In this document: positions 3,284-40,938 of the stretch, piece by piece
How the letters are laid out: the number at the start of each line of letters is the position of its first letter
How positions within the stretch are numbered: the first letter of the stretch is position 1
Assembly: GCA_015680905.1 (NCBI GenBank)
Contig: CM027377.1
Span: 28,172,501 to 28,236,500 of the forward strand
Source of the DNA: Coptis chinensis
Lineage: Eukaryota; Streptophyta; Magnoliopsida; Ranunculales; Ranunculaceae
Direction: 5' to 3'
Length of the DNA: 64,000 nt
Made by a program: the position numbers and the translations under genes
Notes under the pieces: model-generated
Told to the model about the DNA's origin: nothing
The model's database searches: none
Seen by the model: only the letters and a program-made list of their open reading frames with translations

Positions 3284-3512
3284 CTTAAGCGAATAGAGAT
3301 TGGAATATCCTCGAAGAAGTGAAGAAACGAAGCCTCGGTGTAACTACTCTCATCTAGAAACTCAAGTGGCCTTTGATTTGATCACGAATATCCTTCCCAA
3401 GTTTGTTGCAGTTCATATACATAATCATATCTGTCATTTTATCCCTGAACCTTTCTGTCCTTGATCCTTATACAATAAGCGCAGTCATGTTACCAATCAG
3501 ATGAGCTCCAAT
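3284..3512 (-). pseudogene. SKOR/GORK outward K+ channel exon, 3' part (split by CACTA)
   Basis: Minus-strand reading gives GAHLIGNMTALIV, then FRDKMTDMIMYMN and NKLGKDIRDQIKGHL, then ESSYTEAS and EDIPISIRLR before a GT donor. This is the region just after the pore of plant Shaker outward K+ channels (SKOR/GORK), covering the end of S6 and the start of the C-linker. A TAA replaces the expected Lys codon after TALIV, and the frame changes between GHL and ESSYTEAS, so it cannot make a channel. The exon begins at 21802, on the other side of the 18.2 kb CACTA element. The intact protein would export K+ from root stelar or guard cells. Confidence 0.85.
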
Positions 3513-3720
3513 AACTACCAAAAAAACGACTTTACCCGACAGACTCCAGAAAGATTACCCGACGGTTTATAACCATAGGAAGTTACCAACGCCTTTTATC
3601 CGTCGGGTATTAGTTGGCCATCCGTCCCCGATTGTTTTATTCTGTCCGACGGTTGCACGAGAGTTTTTAGCTATCGGCTAGTTCGACGGGCTTTATATGG
3701 CAGTACTACTTAACCGTCGG
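3513..3720 (+). repeat. CACTA left terminal and subterminal repeats
   Basis: Terminal inverted repeat from 3513, then several CCGACGG/CCGTCGG-like units spaced by 20-40 bases (about 3534-3720). In En/Spm elements such arrays bind the TNPA protein and bring the ends together. Confidence 0.85.
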
Positions 3721-3727
3721 CATATCT

Positions 3728-3793
3728 ATTCAATTATCAGGCGGCAAAGATTTCACTTCCATTCAATTATCAGGCGGCAAAGATTTCACTTCC
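3728..3793 (+). repeat. 33-bp direct duplication
   Basis: Two adjacent, identical 33-bp copies (3728-3760 and 3761-3793) beginning ATTCAATTATCAGGCGGCAA. They sit just inside the CACTA subterminal array, perhaps in its leader or promoter region. Confidence 0.85.
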
Positions 3794-4756
3794 CACGCCC
3801 AAAATTTCATGAAAACTTAAACCACCCTAAAATTAAGCCGACTCTAAATAACTCTAAAACTTCCGACTTTTCAGCTTCTCCTTCTTCTACTATTCGCCTT
3901 CTGCAATAGCCCAAACTCTTGAATTTCATTGGCGCCACAGTCACTTCGTTCTCAACCTGAACAGGTAATTCAATGTTTGAATATTTAGTTAATTTCAATG
4001 AGTTCTAGTCAACATAGTAGAAGTAGAAAACCAAATACAAAACAGTACGTTTCTCTTAATTTCTCTGGTGAAAGAACTTAAGAACAAGATCTTTTTTATC
4101 AAAAAAAAAAGAATAATATATTTTCTATGCAAGTGATTCTACGAGTGTGCAGTCTGTCTGCAGCACTGCCATGACTCTTGCGTGCCTTTTCCTCCCTGAA
4201 TTTCCAAGAATTGAGTGGGGTATATCTTTCTAGTCATCCCCTCAAATCGAATCGAAATCTTTGTCCTTCCCTCTTACTTGCGGCTAGAGGAAAGGCTCAA
4301 CATAGTCAGTTGGCACTTCACTCCCGACCAAAATGAACCTAACGCACTGTTGCATGGGGGTCACTACGGAAGTTAGGAGTTTTATAAATTTCTATCTCAA
4401 TCTTATAAATTTAAGTCAGTGAAGGCCGGATTGACGGATTGTATGAAGAAGGAGTCCCATTTCCAGTGGACGGAGGCGTACATATTCCAATATTATATTA
4501 GATCTTTACTAAGGTTATTTTAGTTGATTCAGGACTAAATGAGGGTAAAAATTCAACTAGTTGTTACTTAATCTTGTTTTTAAGTACTTTTAAGTACTGG
4601 GTTCTTTATAGTTTCAGCTCTTAATGTTTAATTGTAAAAGTGATGAACGTAATATTGGAATTTCCTGTTCAATACGCGCGGCCGGTTACAGCATACAAAA
4701 AATCTTCTAATTGTTGGAGTGATATGTAACACCATACATATGGAAGGGTGTTTGCA
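3794..4756. other. CACTA left arm, no clear gene
   Basis: Unrecognised interior sequence of the transposon. A short plus-strand piece near 4430-4480 (LTDCMKK, FQWTEA) faintly resembles retroelement polymerase but is too short to name. Confidence 0.35.
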
Positions 4757-5104
4757 TTACAGACTTGTCCAGGCAGACAAGCATCCAACAACATCTGTAA
4801 TCTGTTCACCACTTATATTCCCCCTGATTTGGGTTGCTAAATTTTCGCTTATTACCAAAATTTGAGAAGCTGGTTTGCCTTGTGAAGAAGCTTCTTCGAT
4901 TTGGAGTATTTTGTTGTACTTTTTTTTCAGTGCCCTTAATCTTTTGTTCACGAAACTCATCACTGGTCCATCTGTTGTAGTAGTGTTGACGTCATAGTTG
5001 GCTTGTGGTGGTGATGTTGTCATCGTGCACCTGCCCCCAGTGGAGAGAAGGTGGAGGGTAGTTTTTGCATGTTTAATCCTTAAAAAATCTTCACTTTCCT
5101 TCAC
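4757..5104 (-). pseudogene. Unidentified minus-strand coding fragment in CACTA left arm
   Basis: An open frame of 115 codons. Residues from about 45 on read DGPVMSFVNKRLRALKKKYN then KILQIEEASSQGKPASQ, a basic, helix-prone segment that looks like genuine plant protein with a short charged coiled coil. I vaguely recall a conserved plant family with a similar FVNKRLRAL(R/K)KK motif, but cannot name it. It is the only captured-looking piece on the opposite strand to the transposase genes and the only one upstream of them. It could be a captured exon or an old element gene. Confidence 0.35.
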
Positions 5105-6380
5105 TACAAAGCCACCACCTCATCTCTCTGCCACCACATATCTCCTCCTCCACTTCCACTACCACTCGTTTGAACACCGGCTTTTAAAAGATGGAAACTT
5201 AAGTTATTTATTTAAAATTTGTGTTCGATAAGTGTAACATGATTTCTTTTCTAGTTGTTTTATTAAAACTTGTGTTTGATTAATTTCAGCTCTGAGAATA
5301 TTCGTCTAAAGACCATATTACGTCGCCATAATTTCTGGTAAGTTTGTCCAATTTGATTTGTGTGGTTCGACAAAGGGCTTCTTACATAATGTCTGATCTT
5401 CTTGTTTAAATTGCTTTGGATGACAAGCAGGGTTCCTTGGTTGTTTTTCTTTGCTTTCTGTAAGTGTGTATTCTATATTTTAGTGTCGGTGAAAATTTAG
5501 TATTCTATATATGTGTACTGGCTATCTTTTTTTTTTGTCTCTTATACGAATTCTGAAAGCTCTATTTTATATATAACCAACTGTAAGAATGCATTTTTAT
5601 TTTTCCCCATATTCTATTTTTCAGTTCCCCATATTCCACATTTTTATACGACATTGTTTGATGAAACACGATAGTTAAGCGGGCTTTATACTAGTGGTAA
5701 TGCATTTTGTGGAATTAGAAATGTCGTGTTTATATAGCTTTACAATTGTAGTAGACTAGTATTATATACCTTCAATGCCTAAAAAATATCTAACGAAGAA
5801 GAGGTGTATGGAGACTAGTATCATATATAGCATACTAGTATCATACCTTCAAATCAAAGGCTACTTGACTTTGATTTGGTTTAAAGCAACTCATTTTATT
5901 ATTATTTGAGTAATGCTTTAATCAAATGTGTTAGTCAAATGAGGATGATGTATCAAAATAAAATTGCCACATTGTGTTTGGTTCTGTAAAAAAAATTCTA
6001 AGGTAGTTTGAGAGCAATCTAGTTAACTAAGTTCAACTATTATACCTTTTTACTCTTTGAAAACGAACTGATTTTTCAAATAGAAATGTCTTGCTAGCAT
6101 TGTAGGATTGATGTCTTTCTTATTACAACACCAATATGTTTGTGTATGTATTGCTGATTATATAAGATGCATGAATATATGTGTTCGACTCTAGTTTCAT
6201 CTAACTTTGGTAATGAATATTAGGTTAGTGTATCGCGTGAGAGTTAGCTTGAAGTCGGTGTATGCTTAGAGTTAGCATTGTAACTCCTTGGCCTAGTTAG
6301 TGTATGCCTCTACATAACTATTTAGCTATTTTTCTAGTTCTGAGTTTCATTTATTCTTTCTTATCTCTTAGAAGTACATC
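5105..6380. other. Leader region of the CACTA transposase gene
   Basis: AT-rich sequence without a coding signal. It probably holds the promoter and untranslated leader, perhaps with introns, of the TNPD-type gene that begins at 6381. Confidence 0.4.
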
Positions 6381-9300
6381 ATGGAGTCAACGTGCTTGAT
6401 AGATAAGAGTTGGATTGATCTAGACGATTTCCGGCATCCCCGTTTTATAAGAGGTGTTACAGAGTTTGTAACATTTGCCTCGGAACACCACGTTAACAAG
6501 AATGTCATACCATGTTCTTGTCGAAAGTGTCGAAACCAAGGCGCAGCAATGAGTCATGATAATGTTGCCCTACACTGTTTTAGCTATGGGTTTGACAAGA
6601 CATATAAAATGTGGTTCTTGCACGGTGAGAAAGAAGTGGAAGAACAACATAATGAAAGAGGGCCGGGATTTCAAGAGAACGTGCATGTGGTTGACATGAA
6701 TGCTGCTTTCCACACCATTGCTCAAGAGTTTAGTCTTGACAACTTGGACACTTTTCTTGGAGATGATCCAGGAGGTTGTACAGAGGGGAGAGAAGTTGTA
6801 GACGGTGTTGCTTTTAACGCTAACTTGCGTGAAGCAATGACTGCATTATATCCTGGATGTGACTTCAGTGTTCTTAGATTTGTCGTGAAACTCCTTAACC
6901 TGAAGTACACAAATGGGTGGAGTGATAAGAGTTTTACCGTATTGCTTCAACTACTCCGCGGTGTTGTTGTTGCTGGTAACAAGATACCAGAGAATAACTA
7001 CAGGGCAGATAAGATGATTAAAGACTTGAAACTGAAATGCAAGAAGATTGATGCATGTAGAAATGACTGCATCTTGTATTGGGAAAAGAATGAATTTAAG
7101 GTTACCTGTCCTACTTGTGGAGTTTCTAGATACAAAACTCCAACCATTGAGGATTTGAGGAAGCGAACTAGGGTGCCTGCTAAGGTCTTGCGATACTTTC
7201 CACTTACGGAAAGGTTGAAGCGATTGTATAGTGTGCCTTGGGTGGCAAAGGAGATGCGGTGGCATTCTACTGGAGAATCAAAGCCTGGCACGATGAGGCA
7301 TCCTGTTGACTCGGCAGTGTGGAAGCAAGTCAATTTAAAATATCCAGACTTCTCTGTAGAGCCACGGAATGTTTGCTTGGGACTAGCCACTGATGGTTTT
7401 ACTCCTTATGGCAACTTTGGAGCGCAACACAGTTCATGGCCTGTTATGCTTGTGAACTATAACCTCCCGCCTTGGCTATGCATGAAGTCTCAATTCACTA
7501 TGCTTTCAACTCTCATTGAGGGTCCAAAGCAACCAGGTAATGATATTGACGTTTATTTGCAGCCGTTGGTTAAAGAACTCCAAGAATTGTGGCGTGATGG
7601 GGTGATGGTTAAAGATGCATTTAAAGGTGAAGAGTTCCATATGCGTGCCATTTTATTGTGGACAATCCATGATTTTCCAGCTTATGGGAATATCTCTGGC
7701 TGTAGAACTAAGGAAAAATTTGCTTGCCCTCCTTGTGGTCCGAAAACTGCTTCTATAAGACTTCACCATGGAAGTAAGCATGTGTATATGAGAAGTAGAC
7801 GGTGGCTTCCATTGAGATCCGAGGCTAGAAATGATACAAGAGAAAGCACCTATGATAAGACAAAGGAAGAAGGTGAGCAACCAATAAGGTTGACTGGAGT
7901 TGAAGTTAAGAGAATGACTAAGAGTTTGAAAAATCATCAATTTGGGAAGCTCGGCAAGAATAAGGAAGGGAATAAAGGAAATTTGTGGTTTTCAAAGCGA
8001 TCTATCTTCTTTAAGCTCAAGTATTGGAAACACATTCTCGTCCGTCATAACCTTGATGTCATGCATATTGAAAAAAATGTATGTGAAATTCTTCTTGCTT
8101 TGATGTTGAATACGAAAGGGAAAACTAAAGATGATGTCAATGCACGCAAAGATTTAAAGCGCATGAAGAGAAAGAAGAAATATTGGGTGACTAAGCTTGG
8201 CGGGAAACAGGTTATGCCTCAAGGTATCTTTTGGCTTCGAAAAGAGGAGAAGAAGTTGTTCATCCAAACCTTGCGCAATCTTAGTGTACCTGTTGGGTTT
8301 AGTGGTAACTGGTCTAATATTGTCAAAGGAGATTCAATGGATTTGAGACAAATGAAGTCACATGACTATCATATTCTAATGCAACATTTGTTGCCGGTAT
8401 TATCTGAGATGCTTATAGAGATGGCAACAGAAAAGAAGCTCGAACAATTATTACTACCATTTGTACTTTCTTTAGTGCTTTGTGTTCGAAGAAAGTAGAG
8501 ATTGAAACACTTGATGTACTGGAAAGGGGTATGGTCAAGGCATTGTGCGCGCTGGAGAGAATCTGCCCACCATCATTGTTTGTTACTATGATGCATCTTC
8601 CTATTCACTTAGCCTGTTTTCTTTAGGTGGATGTATTGTTTTGAAAGGTACGTAGCCTGATTTTTGTTACTTATTTTATTTATTTATTTTCTCATTTTCT
8701 CATTTTTAAGATTCTATTGCTTCTAAAATACTTTTTTAAGGTACATGAAATATTTTAAGGATTATGTTACCAACAAAGCGCGCCTGGAAGGGTGTATTGC
8801 AGAGCGTTACTTGAAGGAGGAGACACTAATGTATTGTGCTGGATATAAAGGAGGAGGTGGTCTTTTAGATAAACTTGATAGGATGGCTGAAAATGAACCT
8901 GATGTTTTACCAGATTTTTTGGATAGTGTAGACGACAACCACACTGCCAATGAGGGTGGGCCACTTGGCCCAAGTGCAAAGTATTTATTGGAAGGTGTGG
9001 AGTATGAACAAGCACGCCAATGGGTATTAAGAAGTCATCCCAGTTATGACAGATGGCACACGTAAGTATATCACGTCATATTAAAGTTGTTAGAAACTTA
9101 ACACAATCTAAATTATATACATAATCCTAACTGACTTTATTACTTCAAAAATCATTTAGGAAGTACACTAGCTTCATTGAGGACAATAGAACAAGTGCAA
9201 GGAGGAGGACTGGGAACACTAGGGTGGCATTGTGTTTTGATGATTTCATCACATGGTTGACAAAACAGCAGGAGTTCCTCGAATCCACTGATGATCACTT

Positions 9301-9935
9301 CAAGGATTTAGTTAGGGGACCTACACGCTTTGCTACAAAGTACCATAAGTATTGTGTCAATGGGTTTCTCTTCATCACCAAAGACTATCAGAAAAATAAA
9401 AGGAACCAAAACAAATGGTGTTACCACAAGTTGCCCTACAACTTTCCGTTCTAGTTCTAAGGATAAAAATCCAATTGATGAAGATGCAGATTACTATGGC
9501 GTTCTAACAAACATTGTTCAACTAAATTATCGTGAAGACTATAAGACTGTTTTGTTCAAGTGTGATTGGGCTAAGTGCACACAACTTGGTGTGAAAGTGG
9601 ATGAGGAAGCAAAGTTGAGGTTGGTCAACTTATCCAATCAACTCAGTTCGGACCATATATGTGATGAACCATTTATTCTTGCAGAGAAGGCTACTCAGGT
9701 TTTCTATTCCCAAGATCCCAAGAATCTTGAATGGCATGTAGTGCTGGAGGTTCCAAGAAAAGTGTATTTTGATGAAGGTGGACCGTGTCTCTCAGAGGAA
9801 AGATTGGTGAATGATTCAGATATAGGGCCTAACAACCTCGACATTTCTATGGTGGATGAACTGATATTCAATGACCCAGACGACATGTTTGAAGTTGTTG
9901 AGAGTAGCAGAAAAAGAAAGAGATCTAGAACATAG
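6381..9935 (+). pseudogene. CACTA transposase, TNPD type (decayed)
   Basis: The longest open part (6381-8498, 705 codons) starts MESTCLIDKSWIDLDDFRHP, a plant transposase-associated domain with a Cys cluster (PCSCRKCRN, near residues 43-51). A TNP2-like catalytic region follows with conserved blocks RHPVDSAVWK, LGLATDGFTPYG and HNLDVMHIEKNV; Asp residues in the latter two are candidate catalytic positions. MKSHDYHILMQHLLP opens a DUF4218 region, continued at 8745-9065 (YFKDYVTNKARLEGCIAERY), and 9470-9800 resembles DUF4216 (YYGVLTNIVQLNY). Breaks: frame change near 8440, and another near 9420. Introns are likely at about 8640-8740 and 9063-9158. The intact enzyme cuts and pastes CACTA ends in the nucleus. 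Family sure; activity unlikely. Confidence 0.9.
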
Positions 9936-10439
9936 TCCATTTATATTTTGTGTTGACTTAGTGGTGTGAGTTTTGTGGTATTAAAATTTTGGTAGTTCTT
10001 TGATTAAGTGGAACTTTTTGTTTGAACAGAGTATGTCTGTACTTGAATCTTTTTCTTTTCCGGATGTATTTTTCATGTGTGCATAATAGGCCTTTTATGG
10101 AATTCTTTCTCTTGCTAGTTAAATAGAAATTTAAATAAAAAATTAATTGATCTTGATCTTTGCACCATGGACATGCATACTTGTTGTATTGTATTATAGC
10201 TCTTTGCACATGGACGAGGGACAAACACATAACAGCTCACATTCACTAAGTGACAGCCTTGGTGATGACTTAGGTAATGGAGATGACTTTTAGTTTTCAG
10301 TTTTCCGTACCATTGTTTTGATCTTACTAACAAATTTGGTTGATATATGCAGGTGAGACACACATTTCTGGTGCATCAACTTCCTCTTCTAAGGAAACAA
10401 GAGGTCCTTCGATAGGTGTTTCGGAGGAGCCCGAAAGGC
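9936..10439. other. Spacer between transposase genes
   Basis: No coding signal that I can support. Includes short intron-like AT-rich DNA; the start of the TNPA-type gene may lie near 10205-10360. Confidence 0.4.
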
Positions 10440-11954
10440 TATGAGAAGGTAATCATTAAGCTTAATGAATGGGGTCAACCGATGAGCCCAAAGAAGAGGT
10501 TGACCATTTCATCACCAAGCTTGGTCACATTGCTCGCCATGACATCCCAATTAAGCTATGATAGCTGGAAACCAATTAAGTTCGCATGAGAGCATCATAC
10601 CCAAAAGCTATTAAAACTTTAGGAAGAATGTATGTGTTTGAAAACATCGATACTATTGACACGGATTGGACAATAAGCAAATTCGAAAAGCGTGGAAGGA
10701 GTACAAGCATGAGTTGTTCAAAAAATACGTCAAAGATCAACCTCCTTCCTTTGTGAGGGAACATTCCAAACAAGGAATTCCTCTGCAAGATTGGCGACAA
10801 TTTGTGGATAATTGCAATTCCGAGAAATTCAAGGTTAATGGATTTTCTGTTTTCTTTCATGGTGATTAGGTATATGTGTTTTGATATAAATTAAAGTGCA
10901 CTATTACTAACTTTAACATGTGCATGCTTCTAGTTTGAGGAACACAGAAAATCGTAAGCAACAAAAAAACTCTTCGTGTCTTGGGAGGAAATCTGCAAAC
11001 AGAGCTAAAGTTGAAATGGCAAAGGAGAAAGGGGTCCCTGTGTCATCTATCACTAGATTGGACCAATATATGCACAATCATAAAAGAAAGAATGGGGAAC
11101 ACCAAGACCCGGAGCTAGTTGTTAGTGTACTGACTTAATAAGAATTGAGATACTAAATTATTTTTAAGATAGTAATTTGAGATATTTTTGTTTATCTGAT
11201 TTACTAGGAAAAGCTTAATGACTACACTGCTTTGCACCCGGAGTCACGAGAGACGTCGGTGAATGATGCCCCACAAAGGTCTCATATTGAATCATAGTTA
11301 TTGTAATTAATTGTTGTTCGACATGATTTTAAGGGTATTAAATCAATTGTCCATTAAGTCTGTGTTCTTGGGCGGATAGTAGGGGTTGTTTTGAGGCTTG
11401 GGTGAAGGGTCCGCAAAACATCGGTGAAGAAGAGTGAAAGTTGTGGCACAACAGAATTTAGCTTTGAAAGAGATGAACACGGACCTTGTGAAGAGGGTAG
11501 ATGTGCTTCCGAAATCTGATGTTGGAGAATTCAGCTTTGTTGAGAGAATTTATGAGCCAAGGAAGAATGCCTATGGCAGATGTTGAATCGCCACGTTCTA
11601 GTCATGCTTCCCGGTAATTATTCGAAGTTATTTTTGAAAAAACATCTCTTATAAGGAAAGACCCGATAACACAATTTAAATTTGTAGGTTGTCAATGAAT
11701 ATATTGGTAAAGAATGTGATCTTAAGTGGTGGTTGGCCACTTAGAGTTAAATGGCGAGAGGTATCGTGCAAGATATTGATCCTAATACCGAGTTTGGTAA
11801 TAGGAGATTGGAAGAGGGGAACTTCAAAGTTCATGTGAACGTGGTTTATGACGGTGGTGCTGTACTACCATTGCCTCATGATGATTGGAGATCAAAGCTT
11901 GGCGAGGTCGCTCAAGGGAGTGTTATCTGGCCCAAAGAACTGCTAATGTTGTAA
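10440..11954 (+). pseudogene. CACTA TNPA-type / Ptta-En-Spm DNA-binding gene (decayed)
   Basis: Pieces in order: REKVIIKLNEWGQPMSP (10440-), IRKAWKEYKHELFKKYVKDQ and PPSFVREHSKQGIPLQDWRQ (10666-), NTENRKQQKNSSCLGRKS (10935-), KLNDYTALHPESRETSVNDA (about 11213), VVAQQNLALKEMNTDLVKRV (about 11440) and a C-terminal block ARGIVQDIDPNTEFGN to GSVIWPKELLML (11754-11954). This order matches the Ptta/En/Spm family, the TNPA-like protein that binds subterminal repeats. Several in-frame stops and frame changes separate the blocks (for example between 10560 and 10670 and near 11340-11440), beyond what introns explain. It lies in the usual place, after TNPD, on the same strand. Confidence 0.85.
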
Positions 11955-12227
11955 TCATTGGGTCACCTTCTTGAAACACTGCTCATTTACTTAAATGTTT
12001 TTTTTGGCTTTTACCAGTGCCAAGTACTAAGGAAACTATTGGCATTTTGTTATTTCCTTTTGGGTTTCGTGGTTGTGATGTATATTTTTTATCACTATGT
12101 AATATGGTTCTTAGGAAAGCAATAATTGAGTTGTGTTCTACCAACCCCCTTGGTAACTCCGCCTGTGCAAACTTAAGATAAGTTTGCATTGCTGGTCCCA
12201 AGCCCAGATAAAGGAGGAGGGAGAAGG
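11955..12227. other. Junction between transposon genes and captured block
   Basis: No coding signal. This is where element-specific sequence gives way to captured host sequence; the exact edge is not visible. Confidence 0.4.
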
Positions 12228-12884
12228 ATGGCAGATGTTTTGTTTTCTTTGGATTCACCTACGTTAACTGAAGTCTGCTTTGCTGCTATTATAGATGTAA
12301 GTAATTCTTTTTTTTTCTTCTAATGATTTACTTGCTTGTTTCTATTCATGGCGAAAACTCATATTTTACTCCATCTTGTTTCTTAGGGCAATATGGAGCT
12401 TTTATATGTTTTGCATGGACAAGAAGGTGGAGTTACACATGTAAGTGAATACTATCATCCTTTCCCCCTGATATTCATCATATATGTGTTGCCTATGTTT
12501 TTTTCCTTCTAGTGGATGCATTTTGAAATTTGATTGTATGGTTATGAGGTGTATGTTGGTGGTATTCCCGTGATGATGCTTCTAGGAAGGATCCGAAGGA
12601 ATTCTTCGTGAGTCGATAGGAGAAGTCACTGAGGTAATGTTTATGGTTTTTATCGTGGTTTTACCTCTCTTCATTACGCCTACAGATTTAAGATTGACTT
12701 TTTTGCTATTGCAGGTCAGGATGATGAAAGGCAAAGATTTCTTGTATATTTTAGTTTCTCTATTTGTATGTGTACTGTCTTACTTTGGTTGTTAATTGTT
12801 TTTTTTTGTTTTCAGTCGAGTGAAGAGGCTTTGGAAACAATGAGGTTACTTCTAGAAGGAAATATAAAGGCGGCCCAACATAAG
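12228..12884 (+). pseudogene. Captured chain of short host-like exons, unidentified
   Basis: At least four well-formed exons with GT/AG borders: 12228-12296 starts with ATG (MADVLFSLDSPTLTEV then CFAAIID), 12387-12440 (GNMELLYVLHGQEGGVTH), 12586-12633 (EGSEGILRESIGEVTE) and 12836-about 12884 (SSEEALETMRLLLEGNIKAA). All stay in one frame when joined by their splice sites, which is strong evidence for a real host gene. I do not recognise the product; it looks like a soluble acidic protein. It lies downstream of TNPA on the same strand and is probably the 5' portion of a captured gene. An alternative acceptor at about 12718 leads to a stop. Confidence 0.55.
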
Positions 12885-13154
12885 ATAAGTTTGATTGTTA
12901 ATTTGTACCCACAGAGCAAGTAATATTGAATTTCCATTTCCTCATTCCCACACCTTTTGTAGTGTTTTCGTTTTCATTTTTTGTTTCTCATTTTTGGTTT
13001 TTGTCTGCTTAGATACTTTTGCTGGATTCTCAACGATAAAACCCGCTGATTTGGATCAAAAGAGAATCAGTTTCAATTTTATCGATTCCCCCGTCTCACC
13101 TTTTCTGCCTTTCATCTTCGTAATCTCCATTCCTTTATTAATGTTTCTTGGCAG
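12885..13154. other. Captured intron or transit-peptide remnant
   Basis: T-rich DNA with a possible decayed reading frame that ends at the AG before 13155. In plastid aspartate aminotransferase genes the preceding exon encodes the transit peptide, but I cannot recognise one here. Confidence 0.35.
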
Positions 13155-13285
13155 GATAACTATGACTGTAGCAGTAAATGTTTCTTGCTTTAAGGGTGTA
13201 TCAATGGCCCCTCCAGATCCAATTCTTGGAGTTTCTGAAGCGTTTAGAGTAGACACAATCTCGGAGTTAGTGCCTACATGTGGTT
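13155..13285 (+). pseudogene. Captured plastid aspartate aminotransferase fragment
   Basis: Directly after a CAG acceptor the frame reads ITMTVAVNVSCFKGVSMAPP then DPILGVSEAFRVDTI. This matches the mature N-terminus of chloroplast aspartate aminotransferase (Arabidopsis ASP5 type: SRFEG then MAPPDPILGVSEAFKADT). The intact enzyme is a pyridoxal-phosphate protein that swaps the amino group between aspartate and 2-oxoglutarate in plastids. Similarity stops around 13265, before the LNLGVGAYR block, so only about 37 residues remain, with none of the catalytic or cofactor-binding residues. It stands inside the CACTA element, on the transposase strand. Confidence 0.85.
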
Positions 13286-13511
13286 AATTATGGAGATGCT
13301 GCCGTCATGCCTGGCTTAATTGATGTGTAAGAAGCTGATTTCTCCCTCTGTCTTGTATACTTGAATGTAATTTTCCTTTGAATTCACTTGTATTTGCATA
13401 TAGATTTCATGTAGTTAAGTTCATCACAATTATTATGTCGATGAGGCTAAGGAGACATCAATAGTGAATTGAGGCATGAAGTAAAGGCGAATAGGAATCG
13501 TGAATTTCTGA

Positions 13512-13838
13512 TTGTTTTATGTTGGTGGAAGGAGTGGGGCATCAGTACTCTTTTTAGGGGTCATGAAGTTGGTTTTGGGACTGGTTTTTGGGAATTCATT
13601 TGTGAGGATATTGAGTCAATTTCCTATTGGGATTTTGGGAGTGCTTCTGTTATTTTCTGGGATTGAATTAGCTATGGCTGCAAGAGATATGAACAGTAAA
13701 GAAAAGTCTTTTGTAATGTCGGTTTGTGCTGCAGTGTCTTTAACTGGGTCTAGTGCGGCTTTGGGTTTCGGATGTGGGATTTTACTGTTTTTGGTCTTGA
13801 AGTTGAGAGAGATGAATTGCTATGGTCCTAGAGATTAA
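13512..13838 (+). pseudogene. Captured MOT1-type molybdate transporter C-terminal end
   Basis: An uninterrupted 108-codon frame with its own stop. It contains GGRSGASVLFLGVMKLVLGL, FGNSFVRILSQFPIGILGVL, LLFSGIELAMAARDMNSKEK, SFVMSVCAAVSLTGSSAALG and FGCGILLFLVLKLRE. This is the last quarter of plant MOT1 (sulfate-transporter-like molybdate transporter of about 450 residues), with three predicted hydrophobic segments. The intact protein imports molybdate across the plasma membrane or organelle membranes. There is no N-terminal transport core here. The frame being fully open suggests recent capture or retained translation. An ATG at 13512 could start a membrane micro-protein. The aspartate aminotransferase piece lies 230 bases upstream. 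Confidence 0.85.
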
Positions 13839-14043
13839 ACCATTTTGTTTCCTGATCCATCAATTTTAATCAACTAAAAAGTCCTAGAGATTCACAAAAC
13901 ACTTATTAAACTACCACGCGTAAGGCACAAATCAAAAGTACACTCTGGTCATGAAGTAGACTTGCTAACTAGAATTACAACTACCAAAGTACTCTCAACT
14001 CTGAACAAGTTGAAAAATGAGGTGAGAGCTAAAAACAGAGAAG

Positions 14044-14410
14044 ATGGGCTGTTCATTTTCTGGTTTAAATGCATTATATGATGCAGTAAATGGTGGTGAA
14101 GATGTTTGGATAAATGAGAATCGTTATAGAATATTAAGACAACTTGGTGAAGGTGGTTTTGCTTTTGTTTTTTTGTTCAAAGAAGTTGCTTCGCATTCTT
14201 CTTCTTATGCTTCTTCTTCTGTTGGTAAAAAACTCAGAGACCCATCTCTTATTTCAGGTCAGTGTTTTCTTTCATGTTATAAGTTTGACAATATAGTGTT
14301 TGGGTGTTAAGAATTTGAGATTGTGTAAATTTTCAGATGATGGAAACTAATGTGGTGAATGCATTTGGAAAAGGGCACCAAATTGAGCTTCTAAGTGAGT
14401 CTGAGGTGCC
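14044..14410 (+). pseudogene. Captured STK16-like protein kinase 5' end
   Basis: ATG at 14044 opens MGCSFSGLNALYDAVNGGED then VWINENRYRILRQLGEGGFA and FVFLFKE, the N-terminus of plant serine/threonine kinases related to human STK16, including the glycine-rich ATP loop GEGGFAFV and a Gly2/Cys3 start suited to myristoylation and palmitoylation. The first exon ends at a GT donor (14258). A decayed second exon begins after the AG at 14335 (DDG), and then soon runs into stops. The catalytic Lys, HRD and DFG motifs are absent. It is the third recognisable captured gene and again lies on the transposase strand. Confidence 0.85.
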
Positions 14411-14969
14411 TTAGGATGGGTCAGTAATCGCTATCGGTCCCCAGAAGTTTACATAACACAGAGTTCAAGAATCACTCAAGTCTTTCTGCCAATTGAAAAG
14501 TTTTTCAGCATCACCATCAATGTGAAAGGTTGCCCATTGAAAAGTTTTTCAGCATCACCATCAATGTGAAAGAAAAGACCTCGTATCCTTCAACACTTTA
14601 CTTGTGAGCATCTTCTTGATTCTTTCCATGCTCTTATTATATGCAACATTTTCTTTATTTTATACAATTTGCCATTTAGCTCCCATGAATAAGTAACATT
14701 ATTTTCTCACTTGAGCAAAAAAAAAAAAAAAAAAACTCTTTGTTAAACTACGACCAGTTTAGTAATATAATACTGGCTTTCCATTTGACAAGAACAATGC
14801 TACTGCAGTGATTGTTAAATAACGACTTGACTGAGTTTATTGCTCGCTAATTCAGGCCTGGGTGAAACTTGACTAATGAGTCACTTTCAAACGGAAATAA
14901 ACCGAGTTGAACTCATCTTGAATTTTGATCCTTTCTCTTGTACCAAATTGAACCAAATAATGTGGCTGA

Positions 14970-15340
14970 TCACAGGCCTCATCTCCTCGAAGTCTGCCTA
15001 GAGACCACAGGCCTCATCTCCGGAACCCGGACATGCTTTCCCCAAAACTTGATCTCGTAGGAGAGTATTCCTCTCTCAAATGAGGTGATGGTTCTCACTG
15101 CTGCTACTCTGAGTTGATGGATCACTTCCTCCTCTCGAAGTCGCCTAGGGGCACCAACCTCTCGAAGTCCGCCTAGAGCCACAGACCTCACGATTCTGCC
15201 CGGTGTCACGGGACCTCACGAAGTCCGCCTAGAGTCACAGACCTCACGAAGTCGCCTAGAGACACAGGCCTCATCTCCCAACCCAGACCATCTTTCCCCA
15301 GAACTTGATCTGTAGGAGAGTATTCCTGTTCTCTATCATA
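14970..15340. repeat. Local direct-repeat patch with CGAAGTCCGCCTAGAG units
   Basis: Repeated short units (CGAAGTCNGCCTAGAG, ACAGGCCTCATCTCC) occur six or more times. A longer ~75-bp unit containing CTTTCCCC, AACTTGATCT and GTAGGAGAGTATTCCT is present at about 15018-15080 and again at 15290-15335. GC content is higher than in the neighbourhood. On the minus strand some of it reads as protein (ILSYEIKFWGKHVRVPE) but I cannot identify it. It may be a minisatellite that grew within a captured gene fragment or element piece. Confidence 0.6.
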
Positions 15341-15768
15341 TTGCTGCACATATCCATAATCTACTTGAACACCCCGAAAATACCCCGAAGTCTCGGTGTT
15401 TGCTCATGACCAGAAGCTTCTTGCTCATGCTGAGAAAATCCAAGATCAGATGCGGAACTTGTAGGAAACTTTGCTGCCTGGTCAGAGACCATATGTTCCT
15501 GATCCTCTATAACATGAACCTCTTCCACTTCTCTTAGCCCATCAAACCTGTTCTGGACATCAACCCCTCTATGTTTCTCCGAGGCTTTTGGTCTCCAGAA
15601 AGTCTCCCCTTGCTTGATTTATAAGGTTGGTGGGTTATACACCTCGTAGGGCAAGAGGGCATTATTGATGTTGGTGTTTTTGGCTAGTTGAAATCAACTC
15701 TTTTTAGCTCTTCTAGTGTCCATGTACTTATTTGTATCCTGTTTGATATTTGATCTTCTAATTTGCAG
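15341..15768. other. Unidentified captured sequence before ARGONAUTE block
   Basis: Minus-strand reading gives a decayed protein-like stretch of low complexity that I cannot assign. The last ~100 bases lead into the acceptor of the first ARGONAUTE exon and are likely captured intron. Confidence 0.35.
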
Positions 15769-16730
15769 AAAATGGTTAATGGAGGTACTATACATCATTG
15801 GATGTGTATCAACTTTTCACGCCTGAACCAAGATTGTGCTGGGCGTTTCTTCATTGATCTTGTTTCCATGTGTAACAGTAAAGGAATGGTATAGCTTTCT
15901 TTTCCAATATCTGTACGTACAATTATTCATGTGTATAAATTACATTAACTCTTTTGATCGTCTTGTCAGAGTATCAACCCAAAACCTTTGCTCCCATTGC
16001 TCTTCACACGGTCTGCTGATCATATTGAAAAGACTCTGATTCAGGCTCACACCCAATCAGTTGTAAAAATTGCAAGTTCATGTCAGCAGGGGCATCTCCA
16101 ACTTTTGATCATTATATTACCAGATTGCACTGGTTCATATGGTGAGTAAAAGCTTAGTAGATTTATACAGTCTCATGCATATTATTAATATGCTTGGTTT
16201 TCACTCTCTTACAGGTAAAATTAAAAGAATTTGTGAGACAGAGTTGGGTATAATCTCCCAGTGTTGTCAGCCTAAGCAGGCGATGAAATGTAACAAGCAG
16301 TATCTTGAAAATGTGGCTCTTAAGATTAATGTGAAGGTTGTTCTATTCATTTCAGCTAGTGTATTTACACTAGACTATTGTGTGGTGGTGTGTTAGTCTC
16401 ATGGTTTGCAATTTGGTGTAGGCTGGTGGAAGGAACACAGTTCTGGTGGATGCGCTCTCCAGGAGAATGCCAATTGTCTCAGAAAAACCAACGATTATTT
16501 TTGGTGCCGATGTTACACACCCCAGTCCTGGGGAAGATTCCAACCCTTCTATTGCAGCTATAAGTCACTCTTTTCTTCCTCTACTTGCTGATGTGTTACC
16601 TAAGTCCTTCCATATTTAAAATGTATCTATTGGCAGGTGGTTGCTTCCATGGACTGGCCAGAGATATCAAAATACAAAGGTCTGGTCTCAGCACAACACC
16701 ATCACCAGGAGTTTTATAATAGTTTACTGT
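15769..16730 (+). pseudogene. Captured ARGONAUTE fragment (MID/PIWI region, five exons)
   Basis: Exons with introns kept: 15769-15888 (KMVNGGTIHHWMCINFSRLN), 15970-16141 (NPKPLLPLL ... [14 protein letters not shown]), 16215-16336 ([31 protein letters not shown]), 16422-16559 ([40 protein letters not shown]) and 16637-about 16725 (VVASMDWPEISKYKGLVSAQ). This matches MID end and PIWI start of AGO1/5/10-type proteins. The first catalytic Asp (FGADVTHP) is present; the other catalytic positions lie beyond the fragment. The fourth donor is AT instead of GT (16560). Intact AGO loads small RNA and slices targets. Lies on the transposase strand in the CACTA element. Confidence 0.92.
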
Positions 16731-18880
16731 TCTAGCATTTTGACTCATTTTATTACAGATATCACTAGGGAGTTGACAATCCGAAGGCAATCAACGTTTG
16801 TCAATCTCCACACATCATATTGTTGGGACCGAAACAGATTTTTGGTTTGGGTGGTAATTTCTCTATCTTGTTACATTCTCCAAATAATTGTGATCGTGTT
16901 TTTATGTGCATATCTATGTTATAAGTAAATTGTCATCATGACAACGACTCAAGCAGCGCTAGCTGGGTATCTGATATGTCCCTCACGTATAAAGAGTTAT
17001 GCTGCAGTAGTCTATATTCTAATTCATACTCTTAACTTGAGTCATCATCATTATCTTGTTTATGGTATTAAATGCTACAGCTTTTAGAGTTCAAAGACTT
17101 ACATTACTTGCTTCCTACAATCCTACATAGAATGTGTGCCTTGAGAAAAATGCCTTTATACCTTATTGGAGAGAGATGTTATATTGGAGTCATGTCATAT
17201 GCTTCTAGGATGGAATTTCCATTCATAGTTATTCTAAAACTGTTTAATCATACATTCATGCAGACTTGTTTTTTCCGCCAATTTGGTCGCTCAGTGGTTC
17301 GTGCCGATTACCTTACACTTCGGATGGGATTTATCATGGTAAGCATAAACTTTGTATATATTCTATATAACAAATTGATAGCGGGTTTTCTTGCACCTAA
17401 CTCTTACCTTCAGATCTTTTTATTTTACTTATACATGCTCTGATATTATGTAAGAGTAACTTTGCTTGATCTTTTCATTCAGTACTAAAAGTACTTATAC
17501 AGTATGTTCCTGATATAATTTTTGCTTACCAGTCTCTAGCCTAATTATCGGTTATCGCGGGAAGTACTATGTTTCTTGTGTTCTTAATACCAACCAAGAG
17601 CATGTTGTTCCTAATACCTCGTGTACTTACCTAGCTCCATCTCGAACCTTAATCTATTGTCCGTTTCAATGTTTTCCTTAATGCTAAACAACTTTTAAAT
17701 CAGATTATTGTCGATGGGTCGAGATTTCAGATATTTGTTCTCTCTATTTTCCAATAATTATTATTTACATTCAAAGCCCCAAAAATCATTGTGTTGAGCG
17801 GTCCCCGTGTAACCATTTTGCGGCTTTTAAATGGTGATCATCTACGCATTAATCGATCTTTTAAATGGTAACGATCTTCAAACCACCGAAGCTACCGGTA
17901 TCAAACAAAAGGTCAATCCTAACATGTAAGCTTCTTTATACCCTATACAAGTATGCCACACATTAGAGTAAAACATCCCTCATGGTAACGAACATAAAAC
18001 CGCCTAATATCGTCTATTAAGGTATTGTGTAGGGACTTCAAATGATGCCGAAGTAGAATGGTAACCTTATTTCTCTTTGGGGGTAGCCATTAAGTAAGAT
18101 CCGAGGAAAATGTTCCGAAAAAGTAGCCATTATACAAGGTATGAGGAACCACAAAGATTGTTCACTAATTCTCATACTGTTTGGGTTTCCTATCCTCTCT
18201 TCGGCACTTTTCTCTTCTTCAATTAGGGTTCTTAATCTCCACCCTAACCTTGTTTAGTCTGTTTGGGGATCAAACTTAAGGTGCATGTTTCTGGCTTTGT
18301 GTGTTTGAGGAGTGAGGGAGTGTGTGTGCTTGTGCTTCCTTCAAACCTGTTGAGTAACGATAATACCAGACACAACAGGATTGCACATAGTGCCTAGACC
18401 AAGTGCTAGTAAGGGTATACGGACAAGAGGTAGCACAAGCAGCTAACTAGAAGAGACTGATCGGTCTTCAAACTCTACTTAACAATAAACCTTCTCAGAG
18501 AAGGACAAACAAGATCTTCAAAATAACAATCATTATGGATACAATAAACAAGGCCAAAGATATTAAAACCACCTTACTTCTCAATTGGAACCGTAGAAAG
18601 CCATTTAGTAACTTCATGCTACAATTTTGCACCTTGGCTTCCTAAAACTACAGTTTCATTGTAAGCTCTCAAGGGGCAACAAAGAATCGACACATCATTT
18701 GTGAGAGATAGAAATGAACATCAAGTTCGACCGACAACTGCTTGTGTTCTTCACACTTTTCAAGATGAACTACTTTTCTTCTCTTACTGTCTTTTTACTT
18801 CATTTCAAGTTGCTTTGAATAAGTAACCCGACCCCTTTGTTTGTTTTTTTTTTTTTTTTTTAATGATCAGTCTTTGTGAA
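16731..18880. other. Captured or decayed sequence after ARGONAUTE block
   Basis: No clear gene. Downstream PIWI motifs that should follow are not recognisable. An exon-like piece at about 17264-17338 (CFFRQFGRSVVRADYLTL, then RMGFIM before a GT donor) weakly recalls the ARGONAUTE segment before the PAZ domain, which would be out of normal order. The rest is AT-rich. A T-run lies at 18841-18861. Confidence 0.4.
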
Positions 18881-20620
18881 ATGGGTCGTTGGAGAAAGTG
18901 GTTTTGTTCGTCAGAGAATGGTTATGAGAGTAATGTTATAGTGACAGAATCTATTTATCATAAAGTTACTAATCCAACACTTTCACCTATTCATCTTCAA
19001 GGTTAGTTAGTTATAATACTACGACTTAAAGTTTGTATCTTTGGTATTATATTTTCATTAGAGAAAAAAAGAAATGTTGGGGTTGGGGAAGGACTTTTTT
19101 TTTTGTTTTGTTTTTAGTGTGAATTGGAAGCGAGTATTTAAGTAATTGAATGTTTAATTTAGTTCAATATTCATCACAAGTCTTGACATTAATTTGAAAA
19201 TTAAAAATGCTATAAGAGAAGCTTTTGACTTGGCCAATAGTATTGGAATGGTGTGAAGATACATGGGGTTGTTTGTAAAGTGAACATATTAGTATTACAA
19301 TTAGTGACATATAGATTAGCCATGTAAGTGTCACGGATATTTTGAATATATCCCAACAAAGAAGTTCATAAAAAATTCGGCAAAGATAAGCGATGTAGTA
19401 TAAAAGAAAATCTCTGGAAAGACTTAAAGGGTGATCATAGGCATTAATATATGGTTGGTATAATTTTCTTTGTGGAATTGTCTCTACAAGCGACACAATA
19501 ACACGACTCTAATATCAATAAAGTTCCGGGAATGTACTTAAATGAGTTGGGAGAAGGCTAAGTAGGTATATCCCTGAGAATTGTTATTGCAATGAAATGT
19601 TCTCAAAAATATTTTAGCTAAGTTACTATTTAACTTTGACAGACTTGCCGGGTTTTACTCGTAGTGTTTACCGAGAAGATCATGCAGTAATCACACCTGA
19701 AAGTCATGTATTCAGCCCTCTCCCCCGTGGTAAGTCCCGCTTTAGTTGATGTCCGGAGACTTAGAAGAGAGACTGTTCATGAATATATGGTTTTGCGTCT
19801 TCGCAGGTCTAATACAATGGGCTTATCTAATCACTCCTGCAATGGGTTCACACTTTGTAATGTACCTAGCCAAGATGCAAGGTCCATCAATTCTTTGGTT
19901 TTATGTGGATTTGCTAAATAGACATGTTTGTAGTTTATTGTCATTGGAAAACCCTCGTAGTCAATTTCATGCACTTGAAGAATACACGTCCAACCGAGGT
20001 TTGCTTCCTCATCTAGTCTAAGGTTGTGGTGATATGATCTAGGTAGTTTTATTACTTTTGACTTGGACCCTAACCATGTGATTAGAGTCAATGTTGGAGA
20101 AATATGATGAACTCTCATTTTTCTAGTGCACCTTTTATCATCACTTCACCTAAAAAAAATGCCTTGACATACTTTGACAGCTTGTAGTTCCAGTTCAAGA
20201 AACTGATAATGTCAAAGTCACAGCTTAATTTGGTATTGTGACTACAAAAACTGAACTGTTTTCTTTTATAGTCTTCTTCCTCTCTTCTTTCTCGATATTC
20301 CTACGTCAAGTTCTCTTTATGGTCGCATGACTTCTGTTTCTTTCTCTGCTGATGCAGTGCTTTCGCGGTCTGGGATTAACCAAGAATTGCTGGTGTGTTC
20401 TCTTCTCAGTTGTTAGTTTGTTATGAATTTATACCCAGTGAATTATTTGCGGTTACGTGAATTCTTAAGTATTGTATTTTTCATCCTTTAGAATCGAAGA
20501 ATAGATTTTGATGTCTTTCATGTTTAATGCAGGTTGATTCATATGCATACCTACCTCTAATTTTGAGCATTCTGTTAGGTGTGAAACATTAGCTACTCTT
20601 GTAGTGTTTGAGCGGAGGTA
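18881..20620 (+). pseudogene. Captured (S)-ureidoglycine aminohydrolase fragment
   Basis: Exon 1, 18881-19001, ends in VTNPTLSPIHLQ. Exon 2, 19643-19729, reads DLPGFTRSVYREDHAVITPE then SHVFSPLPR. Exon 3, from 19806, reads AYLITPAMGSHFVMYLAKMQ. A later decayed exon (about 20531-20617) reads VDSYAYLP and, in a shifted frame, TLVVFERR. The order and content match plant UGLYAH, a cupin enzyme of the endoplasmic reticulum that releases ammonia from ureidoglycine in purine (ureide) breakdown. The C-terminal cupin with most metal ligands is absent. Introns and GT/AG borders are retained. This is the last captured gene before the right arm of the CACTA element. Confidence 0.88.
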
Positions 20621-21309
20621 GGCTTTGATACTCTCATATGTCTGTATGTCTTTTAAACATAGTTTGTGCTCTACTGCAGTCTGATTTGATACTATTGGTT
20701 TTAGAATGTAGAGAGTAAATTAAGATCGATATGTTGAAGTGGACTGTTGTTCCTTCCATCTGTCAAAACACTTCAAATTTTTGTCTCATCAAAATCAAAA
20801 AGATTTTCATTCAAAACACTATGATAACACAGCTAGAATTATTTCTAGTTCCTAAGAGAGTACTTCATGATCTTCTTCTGCTTCTTTTTTTTTGGTCAGC
20901 AAAACTCACTTCAAGATCTTGGCAAATGGATTACCAACTTGGTGAGACGCTTTGGACCTTAGTGATTTTGTTGAAGGGTTGAATCAAGGTTGCGATGATG
21001 AATCTATTGTGTGGGATATGCAAACTTCATCTATTTTGGTTTTTTGAGTATGTTTGTTGTAAGTAATGGTACTAGAGATTACTAGGACTGGTTGTTAGAC
21101 AGATGGTGTACGTGGTGCTGATTTTTGGTTTCTAAAGGAAGTAATATGTATACTTAGTGAACATGTCTTATTCTTGTTTTTTTTTATGAACACATTGTTT
21201 CTTTATGAATACATTGGCGTTTGTAGCATTTGAGTGGGAACTTGCAAGAATGTAATGTTGGGATACCTGAAACAATTATTATAAAAAATATATTTTTTTA
21301 AATAAAGAA
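20621..21309. other. CACTA right interior, no clear gene
   Basis: Contains a short plus-strand frame at 20731-20982 without recognisable similarity. Possibly the 3' flank of the captured aminohydrolase or native element sequence. Confidence 0.35.
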
Positions 21310-21725
21310 CTAATACCCGACGGATGAAAACTGTCTAGTAGCAAACTACCCGACGGCTAGCAGCTGGCATATCCGACGGCCCGATGATAATTTGGTCTAA
21401 CCGACGGTTCATAACAGTAGAACTATCCAACGGTTTTTAACAGCAGGAATATCCGACGGTTTTTAGTAGCAGGAATATCCGACGGTTTTTGACAGCAGGA
21501 ACTATCCGACGGTTTTTGACAGCCGGCATATCCGACGGTTATTAACAGCGGGAATGTCCGTCGGCAAAGATCTTCAACCCCGACAGCCTGTTTTGACCAA
21601 TAAAAACCGTCGGAAGGCTATGCCGACCGAGCATTTTCCGACGGTCTTGCGGCAGTTTTGGTCTGTCGGGTAATACCTTTCGCGACAGCCATAGTCAGTC
21701 GGGTAAAGTCGTTCTTTTGGTAGTG
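21310..21725 (+). repeat. CACTA right subterminal array and terminus
   Basis: At least nine units of CCGACGG followed by about 20 bases (TTTTTAACAGCAGGAATAT type), spaced regularly at 28-32 bases between about 21316 and 21560, then inverted copies (CCGTCGG) and the terminal inverted repeat ending GGTAGTG at 21725. Expected binding sites for the element's TNPA protein. Confidence 0.9.
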
Positions 21726-21802
21726 AATAATCATATCAAATGAGACATAAATAATAACAAATATCATTTGCCTCACATTGACTGCATGTACATCTCCATA
21801 AC
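21726..21802 (-). pseudogene. SKOR-like K+ channel exon, 5' part
   Basis: Minus-strand exon from 21802, after a CAG acceptor, reads YGDVHAVNVRQMIFVIIYVS then FDMII and stops at the CACTA terminus. The exon continues at 3512 (GAHLIGNMTA). With the preceding exon it forms the pore signature TVGYGD, whose Gly codon is split by the intron. This half covers the outer pore and S6 helix. The AAT at 21726-21728 is the target duplication. Confidence 0.88.
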
Positions 21803-22261
21803 CTGTGGCAAAAAGAGTAAAATTTTAAAATGTTTTTGACCACCATAGGGTGATAGATGATAGAAGTAATCAATGATCTTGAAACACGATATTGTCAAAT
21901 GCAAATCGACAGAACATATAAGTGTTCTTCATAATTTTTCCATTTTCTGCATAATTATACTAACATAATTGAATATGATGAAACTATTAAGTAGTAGCAC
22001 TCTAAGGACTAATGCATCAACAAGACAGCTCTAGCAATGCAAATGTAATAATAGCCATACTGAATGTCTTTTCCCACTGATGAAAATTCCATACACCTTC
22101 TTGCAAAGTCGTTCAAAGCTGTAAACGTCCAAAATATGATTACTTATCTATTACAGTTTATTTTACTGAAAGTTGATCGTAATTTCACATTTGCAAGTCA
22201 AATTCACGGTATTCTGAATCCTTAAGTTACTTCGGTAAAAATAAAAAGGAAAACAGCTTAC

Positions 22262-22496
22262 CAACAGTAATCATGGTAACAATGGCAAAATATAGAGATT
22301 TTAAATAACGCTTTCCAAGATCGAGTAACTCCCCAAGCTTTAAGCTTCCTATCCAAGTGTAACCTTCATGGGAAGGAGGCAGAGTAGTTGCCAAGTAGTA
22401 AAAGATGCAGACAGCTGTATGAGTGCAATAGAGTTCAACAGCAATAAGTTTCACCATCCTGGTAAACAGATAGTTGATGCGGATATCCTTCTCCAT
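22262..22496 (-). pseudogene. SKOR-like K+ channel exon (S5 and pore helix)
   Basis: On the minus strand MEKDIRINYLFTRMVKLIAV, ELYCTHTAVCIFYYLATTLP, PSHEGYTWIGSLKLG and KRYLKSLYFAIVTMITVG match the S4-S5 linker, S5 and pore helix of SKOR/GORK channels. It ends at a GT donor so that TVG joins YGD of the next exon. Compared with the family about eight to eleven residues are missing between SLKLG and KRY (normally containing DYSYS..FREIDLW), in frame. The exon start is at 22496 or 22499 depending on which AG is used; using the CAG would place a stop before Met. No further exons upstream were recognised, so the copy is a partial pseudogene. Confidence 0.85.
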
Positions 22497-28100: not shown

Positions 28101-28640
28101 AAGTATATTTACAAGGGATTTGACAAAATAACTATGGTGCTAACTAGAGCGAATGACGAGTTCCAATAGTACATCGACGGGAGGTATATCAGACCACCAG
28201 AAGCTGTGTGGCGTCTATTAGAGTTTAGAATGAACGAGGAGGTACCAAATGTTGTTCGCTTGGCAGTCCACTTGCCTGGAATGCATCGGGTTATTTATAA
28301 AGCAACATAACCAATGGAAGAAATTATTGCTTGAGCTAAGCGTCAGAAATCAACTCTAAATGCATTTTTCGAATGTTGTGCTAAATATCCATATGCCAGA
28401 AAGTACACTTCTCAAGAATTCCCTCAACACTTTGTTTACGACAAGTCTAAGAAAATTTGGACACTCAGGAGCAAAAGTTGTTATGCTATTGGTCTAATGT
28501 ATTTTGCAAGTCCAAATGCAGATGAACATTTCTATCTTCGCTTGTTGTTAACTGTTGTAAAGTGCCCGTAATAATTTGAATCATTAAAATTTGTAGATGG
28601 TGTTCCATATAGTACATTTAGAGTCGCATGTATAGCACTT
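25169..28640 (+). pseudogene. Helitron Rep region (decayed)
   Basis: Order: PTQRQLAQRACQEKNRM (25220-), RKGQYYLGRMDVDSVLPYIG, then after the LTR-like insertion MCCLQGKIKLPLLSELPPAF (26948-), HLILPSSHTGSPRHMYEIYQ (27352-) and FVTVTANSNWPEIQNELNCY (27455-), GLPHMHALIFL (27661-27695; HMH is the HUH metal-binding motif) and VEVCASVRAVKYITKYIYKG (28063-28122), with two Tyr flanking Lys as in the two-Tyr nicking site. The stretch 28374-28570 (FVYDKSKKIW, YLRLLLTVVKCP) matches the region between Rep and helicase. Stops and frame changes occur, for example near 27645 and at 28167. Activity is not expected. Confidence 0.85.
25409..26920. mobile_element. LTR-like insertion A (probable solo LTR)
   Basis: A 1,512-bp unit with TGATAA at the left and TTATCA at the right edge (TG...CA) and the 5-bp duplication TCAAC on both sides (25404-25408, 26921-26925). 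Contains no coding signal. It is about 80-85% similar by eye to insertion B at 29665. Both are noncoding and old. Read on the minus strand it begins TGATAAGAGCCCAAAACTGT. Solo LTR of an LTR retroelement is the best reading; a small noncoding relative (TRIM or LARD type) is possible. Confidence 0.75.
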
Positions 28641-28964
28641 TGTTAGAAGATGATGAAGATGATGGAAAGCGAAATTAGATTAGAGGAGGAAACTATGATG
28701 CAAATTGGGTATCAACTACGAAGACTTTTCAGTGTTATCCTTCTAGAGTCCACTCCAACATGTCCAAAACTATTGTGGGATAGATTTGCATTACAAATAT
28801 GTGATGATCTTGCACCCAAGATGAAAACATTGTTTCTTATTTCAAAACCATCTGATGACCAAGTAAAAGACTACGACTTATTTTTATTGGACCAAATCCT
28901 TTTTGAGAGTGGTAAGAAGCTTTCAGATTTCCCAGACATGCCACTACCAAGAGAAAATTAGAAT

Positions 28965-29332: not shown

Positions 29333-29664
29333 CAATTAGAATAAGGTAGTTGGCAATAGACTTATTTTGGAGCAACAACAACTTTAGTATGAGGGACTAC
29401 AACAGGTGGCAAATGATAATGTCAGTCGTCTCAATAAAGAGCAATGCCAAGCTTTCAATGCAGTGACGGATTCTGTGCACAATGCTAAAGGAAAATTATT
29501 TTTCTTAAATGGAGCTGCGGGTACTGGAAAAACATTTATATACAATACAATTGCAACATCATGTCGTCGTAATATCAGTAATATCGTGATTATGGTGGTT
29601 TCTTCTGGAGTTGAGACTTTATTATTGTCCGGAGGCCGAACTGCCCACTCAACATTTAGGTTAC

Positions 29665-40900: not shown

Positions 40901-40938
40901 TCGTTCATGCATTTTTATTCTATCACACCATCAAAGAA

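Follow-up and report, generated by a model that had tools for sequence, protein, structure and literature searches.

A CACTA transposon in a potassium-channel-like exon of Coptis chinensis carries pieces of several unrelated host genes

Element ends and insertion site

The window analyzed here is a stretch of 64,000 nucleotides from Coptis chinensis (GenBank assembly GCA_015680905.1, contig CM027377.1, positions 28,172,501 to 28,236,500 of the forward strand), and all coordinates below are positions in it. Positions 3513-21725 of the + strand are a CACTA (En/Spm) transposon of 18,213 bp, its orientation being set by the transposase genes. The element interrupts a coding exon in a gene copy resembling the SKOR/GORK potassium channels, and the approximately 8 kb located 3' of its transposase genes hold pieces of ARGONAUTE (AGO), ureidoglycine aminohydrolase (UGLYAH), MLO, the molybdate transporter MOT1, aspartate aminotransferase, an RRM protein and, on a weak match, an STK16-like kinase. 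The ends of the element and its insertion site are as follows.

3513..21725, + strand: whole CACTA element (terminal inverted repeats, target-site duplication AAT, empty-site reading)
3513..3545, + strand: left terminal inverted repeat, starting with AACTACC (first base C changed to A)
21693..21725, - strand: right terminal inverted repeat, ending with ...GGTAGTG (CACTACC when read inward)
3559..3720, no strand: left subterminal repeats of the CCGACGGTT type (motif census)
21314..21672, no strand: right subterminal repeats of the CCGACGGTT type (motif census), with an array of 26-bp period at 21401-21564
3350..3512, - strand: flank, second half of the split SKOR/GORK-type exon, carrying stop codons (PDB match to SKOR, 5.1e-19)
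21729..21806, - strand: flank, first half of the split SKOR/GORK-type exon (joined-flank reading; the neighbouring exon matches GORK in PDB)

Each terminal inverted repeat has an arm of 32 nt, the two being 94% identical, and 26 of the 28 outermost positions are the same. As is characteristic of the CACTA superfamily, the repeats start with CACTA (the left end deviates by one base), the target-site duplication is 3 bp long (AAT at 3510-3512 and 21726-21728), and CCGACGG subterminal repeats are present at both the left and the right end in both orientations. Exact copies of CCGACGGTT are confined to 3559-3720 and 21401-21613 in the whole window. The motif census with at most one mismatch found no CCGACGGTT between 3720 and 21317, so no remnants of further element copies are seen between the cargo pieces.

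When the flanks are joined with one copy of AAT, they yield an uninterrupted potassium-channel reading, GYGDVHAVNVRQMIFVIIYVSFDMIIGAHLIGNMTALIV, followed by a stop codon. The left flank, read on the minus strand, consists of IGAHLIGNMTALIV, a stop codon and then a continuation beginning with GSRTERFRDKMTDM, while the exon preceding the split one (22263-22496) matches both GORK (1.7e-33) and SKOR (1e-32) in PDB. Both flanks match the same PDB chain of SKOR, 8jet, the right one at residues 205-289 and the left one at residues 315-365, with the 26 channel residues between the two matches coming from the reading of the joined flanks and not from a database match. The coding exon at the insertion site proves the element ends with no need for a second assembly, and the exact coordinates proposed for the element in the first-pass annotation of this DNA hold. 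The split channel gene copy, with its stop codons, now looks like a pseudogene.

Transposase genes

Two transposase genes precede the cargo.

6381..9935, + strand: TNPD-type transposase gene with Transpos_assoc, Transposase_21, DUF4218 and DUF4216 (Pfam; open reading frames, ORFs)
10200..11955 (extent determined by eye), + strand: TNPA-like gene with a Transposase_24 match under the curated cut-off

The Pfam domains of the first gene follow each other on the + strand, at about 6400-9745, in the order Transpos_assoc (3.8e-17), Transposase_21 (7.5e-84), DUF4218 and DUF4216 (2.6e-18). Thus the Transposase_21 (TNPD) gene expected of a CACTA element is present, though its frame is interrupted. Inspection of the ORFs by eye shows frame shifts near 8440 and 9415 that no visible intron accounts for, and TNPD thus appears to be broken at two places; a third frame change, inside DUF4218, coincides with an apparent intron. 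The Transposase_24 match in the TNPA-like gene scores 17.2 bits, or 23.7 bits for 10917-11153 (cut-off 28.7).

Given the two frame breaks in TNPD and the altered left terminal base, the element is probably no longer self-mobile. Coding DNA has been captured between its terminal inverted repeats, as in Pack-CACTA (Pack-TYPE) elements, but these are free of transposase; since a transposase gene is present here, the element is classed as a gene-carrying CACTA of the autonomous type.

Captured gene pieces

The cargo was identified by searching spliced + strand exons against Pfam, PDB and NCBIfam. Six pieces have database support, and a seventh, the kinase, is likely.

12540..12749, + strand: decayed RRM (hnRNP-like) piece lying across three frames (Pfam RRM_1 6.7e-5, on a query hand-joined from the three frames; PDB RRM proteins)
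13155..13255, + strand: aspartate aminotransferase exon piece, 36 aa (PDB mitochondrial aspartate aminotransferase 6.3e-4)
13512..13838, + strand: MOT1 piece, 108 codons open (Pfam MFS_MOT1 7.2e-8)
14044..14258, + strand: first exon of an STK16-like kinase, 72 codons open (weak: PDB GAK 0.011, STK16 0.59)
15769..16714, + strand: MID-PIWI piece of AGO (AGO1/5/10 type), five exons with 210 codons open, introns kept
16759..17338, + strand: MLO family piece, exons 16759-16853 and 17264-17338 with an intron (Pfam Mlo 1e-15)
18871..20618, + strand: UGLYAH piece, five exons with introns (PDB 4e2q 1e-42)

The best supported piece is that of AGO, matching AGO10 (PDB 7sva, 5.6e-71), AGO5 (5.7e-45) and the Pfam Piwi domain (1.4e-30). 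Its final exon ends at 16714, and the initial MLO exon starts at 16759, 44 bp apart. In the UGLYAH piece, a part of the protein is absent between exons 3 and 4, and the frame is broken in exon 5; the NCBIfam match (TIGR03214, 3e-6) is under the whole-protein cut-off. All 12 exons of AGO, MLO and UGLYAH have AG before them, and with the ends as placed 9/12 have GT after them (a tenth does after a one-base shift), although these counts are not independent, since GT/AG was used in placing the exon ends.

The aspartate aminotransferase piece, which we take to be of the plastid type, has no match in Pfam. Likewise, no kinase family was found in Pfam for the exon at 14044-14258, and its assignment to plant STK16 is largely our assumption. 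Among the remaining + strand stretches, no Pfam match was obtained for two exons joined within 12208-12440, nor for 12816-12919, 14337-14411 and 20946-21044; 12816-12919 has no PDB match either. The stretch 13277..13328 (+) may be the end of an allantoinase exon before a GTAAG donor, with no match in Pfam or PDB. If so, the cargo would hold two pieces of the ureide pathway, allantoinase and UGLYAH, most likely by chance.

That one CACTA element captured pieces of several unrelated host genes, as already recognized in the first-pass annotation, is thus supported by the identities of the pieces, their introns and the adjoining AGO and MLO exons. Four of the five genes named there (AGO, UGLYAH, MOT1 and aspartate aminotransferase) are confirmed by database matches, and the match of the fifth, the STK16-like kinase, is weak; the exon chain that had been left without a name is probably, at least in part, MLO. 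Introns, ascribed there to most pieces, are seen in AGO, MLO and UGLYAH, that is, in several of them.

The introns kept in these three pieces, together with the adjoining of unrelated genes, mean that the cargo consists neither of retro-copies nor of a plain segmental duplication. More generally, a segmental duplication or an assembly artefact in place of capture is extremely improbable: no point in its favour was found, and it is contradicted by the terminal inverted repeats, the target-site duplication, the restored channel exon and the 44-bp distance between the AGO and MLO exons.

Two tandem duplications are present in the cargo, at 14487-14572 (44 bp, two copies) and 15131-15273 (27 bp, 5.2 copies), possibly fitting slippage in repair synthesis.

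Orientation of the pieces

All seven pieces lie on the transposase (+) strand, which corresponds to a two-sided p of 0.016. This value varies with the weak candidates admitted to the count, being 0.039 for 8/9 (with the presumed allantoinase exon and one antisense candidate added), 0.070 for 7/8 and 0.109 for 8/10. Moreover, the pattern was noticed post hoc, and the pieces were first spotted on the + strand.

The minus strand of 12001-21725, searched unspliced in three frames, yielded 0 Pfam families, and nothing nameable was seen in translations inspected by eye. Applied to the + strand as a control, this unspliced scan found little: Piwi in two frames, a marginal MOT1 match (29.6 bits, cut-off 30) and one match at the chance level. 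Hence the power of the minus-strand scan is low, and it does not prove this strand empty. Two minus-strand candidates are as follows.

15361..15618, - strand: coding-like ORF, a possible antisense piece (codon score 23.7, compared with the maximum of 23.4 in 200 shuffles)
4757..5119, - strand: candidate antisense piece to the left of the transposase genes, with an ORF 120 aa long (p 0.035 for its length in shuffles)

The codon test covered 11 stretches, with MOT1 and AGO as controls, and its training set included cargo exons; the first ORF was scored over 15364-15615. The first ORF is of ordinary length (shuffle p 0.505) and has no Pfam or PDB match. In the second, the codon score of the ORF is not the best one there, and Pfam gives only matches under the cut-off (0.028 and 0.053); we take it, tentatively, to be a piece of a plant Caprin-like protein. 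An exon scan that takes splice sites into account, with its training done outside the cargo, assigned 15 of its top 24 candidates to the + strand and 9 to the minus strand. Its best scores, 16.1 (+) and 15.6 (-), fall within the range of the Markov null maxima (12.2-17.3), neither strand rising above the null, so that the scan leaves the question of orientation undecided.

In the first-pass annotation, all pieces were placed on the transposase strand, which holds for the seven identified ones and is qualified by the two minus-strand candidates. The single orientation was also ascribed there to selection for sense read-through or to directional capture. Such a set orientation, where antisense pieces would be lost through poly(A) signals or antisense RNA or would never be taken up by a directional mechanism, is favoured by the 7/7 and 8/9 counts and by the soybean element Tgm-Express1, a CACTA that lies in F3H intron 2 (the wp allele), with five gene fragments spliced into chimeric transcripts (PMC1947982). 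Being spliced as exons together with F3H, all five fragments should be sense to the host gene. The 7/8 and 8/10 counts weaken this explanation, as do the initial bias of inspection towards the + strand, the exon scan staying within its null, and an antisense PPR piece carried by a grapevine CACTA (PMC2528002). We consider it unlikely, and with p ranging from 0.016 to 0.109 for a pattern seen post hoc, neither selection nor directional capture is established. The same two published elements, one with five fragments in a sense transcript and the other with an antisense piece, indicate that calling the arrangement unusual was an overstatement.

The sense bias is therefore suggestive but not established. 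The mostly sense orientation would most likely reflect chance combined with weak retention of those pieces whose splice sites permit read-through splicing, as in Tgm-Express1. Our search of the open-licence literature on the sense orientation of gene fragments in CACTA elements found none.

Possible origin of the cargo

What is read directly from the DNA comprises the termini of the element, its transposase domains, which genes the pieces belong to (weakly for the kinase) and on which strand they lie, and the short distance between AGO and MLO. On this basis, we assign a probability of roughly 85% to the locus being a CACTA of the autonomous type, inserted in a SKOR/GORK-like exon and carrying a patchwork of at least six, probably seven, host gene pieces copied at the DNA level with their introns. 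The process was probably multi-gene transduplication by patchwork repair. The pieces would have been taken up in several separate events; most likely, gaps left by transposition would be repaired by synthesis switching to unlinked host templates, and recurrence of such switching over several transpositions fits the structure best.

The pieces are unequally preserved, with 210, 108 and 72 open codons in AGO, MOT1 and the kinase exon, respectively, and an RRM piece broken over three frames, which is consistent with pieces of different ages. This bears on the possibility that a ready-made chimeric locus was captured once, the CACTA merely moving it. A single event would account for the single orientation of the pieces, but their unequal decay suggests that they did not arrive together, and we regard single capture as improbable.

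Another possibility is that a Helitron nested in the CACTA makes up the cargo block. Helitrons are known for gathering several gene pieces, and those of maize hold multiple fragments taken up stepwise (PMC3288121). Moreover, 5-10 kb from the cargo there is a Helitron-like stretch (27130-33307) with a PIF1-type helicase (Pfam 4.6e-57) and a good 3' end, a hairpin with CTAG-T, at 33304. The scans of the cargo itself point the other way. A search for a hairpin with CTRR-T in 11000-22000 gave two + strand candidates, one upstream of the named pieces (12192) and one inside the block (17510), with none past the last piece; the only minus-strand candidate was at 9222. A scan of the window for the 5'-end motif of Helitrons gave none on the + strand at the cargo. 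Thus a 5' TC end and a 3' hairpin with CTRR were not found at the cargo edges, in simple scans that diverged ends could escape. A nested Helitron is distinctly unlikely.

Several points weigh against the patchwork CACTA. The kinase, RRM and aspartate aminotransferase pieces are short, weak or decayed. That the capture was stepwise and mediated by repair is something we infer, and the pieces may have been joined elsewhere before being captured together. Short matches to the terminal motif occur inside the element (e.g., an exact copy of ACTACCAAAA at 9987, minus strand), but we read them as chance, since their density resembles that outside the element. In viral contigs, the pattern of the terminal inverted repeats had 0 matches, and that of TNPD had 6 pattern matches with 0 true relatives among them.

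In one published model of capture, neighbouring Pack-CACTA copies fuse through terminal deletion and so acquire the stretch of chromosome that separated them; the review describing it leaves room for an undiscovered capture route for unlinked genes (PMC13317346).

Comparison with known CACTA elements

Capture of several genes by CACTA elements is already known, and the Coptis element is a further well-bounded example. The nearest known case is Tgm-Express1, likewise a CACTA with several unrelated host gene fragments that keep their introns; its marked introns all have canonical splice sites (PMC1947982). Tgm-Express1 is 5.7 kb long, intronic and not regarded as autonomous (PMC2613891), whereas the Coptis element is 18.2 kb long, exonic and equipped with TNPD and TNPA-like genes.

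Captured genic regions, some of them in chimeric RNAs, are also described for the Tpn1 family of Ipomoea nil, where the gene-carrying members are non-autonomous, with the interior replaced (PMC5105172); the likeness drawn here is one of description. The Jozin CACTA of Chenopodium similarly holds captured gene fragments alongside coding sequence (PMC8978399). According to that report, the fragments of Jozin lie 5' of ORF1, whereas in the Coptis element the named pieces follow the transposase genes on the 3' side and are more numerous. Arabidopsis Pack-CACTA elements also hold captured coding DNA between CACTA termini, but are non-autonomous by definition (PMC8903248, PMC13317346), unlike the Coptis element with its transposase gene, though a broken one.

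Judging by the passages compared, the less common feature here is that a TNPD gene, a length of 18 kb and, 3' of TNPD, six or more gene pieces occur together in one element. No CACTA with the same cargo was found among the papers listed from the open-licence literature, where argonaute was the sole cargo gene sought by name.

The significance of the locus lies in a well-bounded, transposase-bearing CACTA with many host gene pieces, AGO and MLO among them. If the sense bias proved true across many copies, it would indicate orientation-dependent retention, and hence how transposons build new multi-exon genes; the orientation claim merits a family-wide count ahead of any mechanism. As a speculation that we consider very unlikely, large transposase-bearing CACTA elements could act as one-way collectors of exons, preferentially retaining pieces with splice sites in the direction of the transposase transcript and becoming mobile multi-exon genes, with the AGO MID-PIWI piece feeding chimeric or small RNAs that touch host silencing.

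Neighbouring features

The other features of the window are as follows.

1-2270: apparent right terminus of a second CACTA-like element that belongs to a different family; it ends with ...CTGTAGTAGTG and has AACGCTAT-type repeats (by eye)
About 544-668: V-ATPase subunit a piece carried by this second element (Pfam 1.6e-5, under the cut-off)
1834-1905: tRNA match in Rfam (44.1 bits) beside the end of the second element; ARAGORN makes no call
39292-45801: long gag-pol ORFs, by eye those of a Gypsy-like retrotransposon, with a tandem repeat after them (103-bp unit, 6.1 copies)

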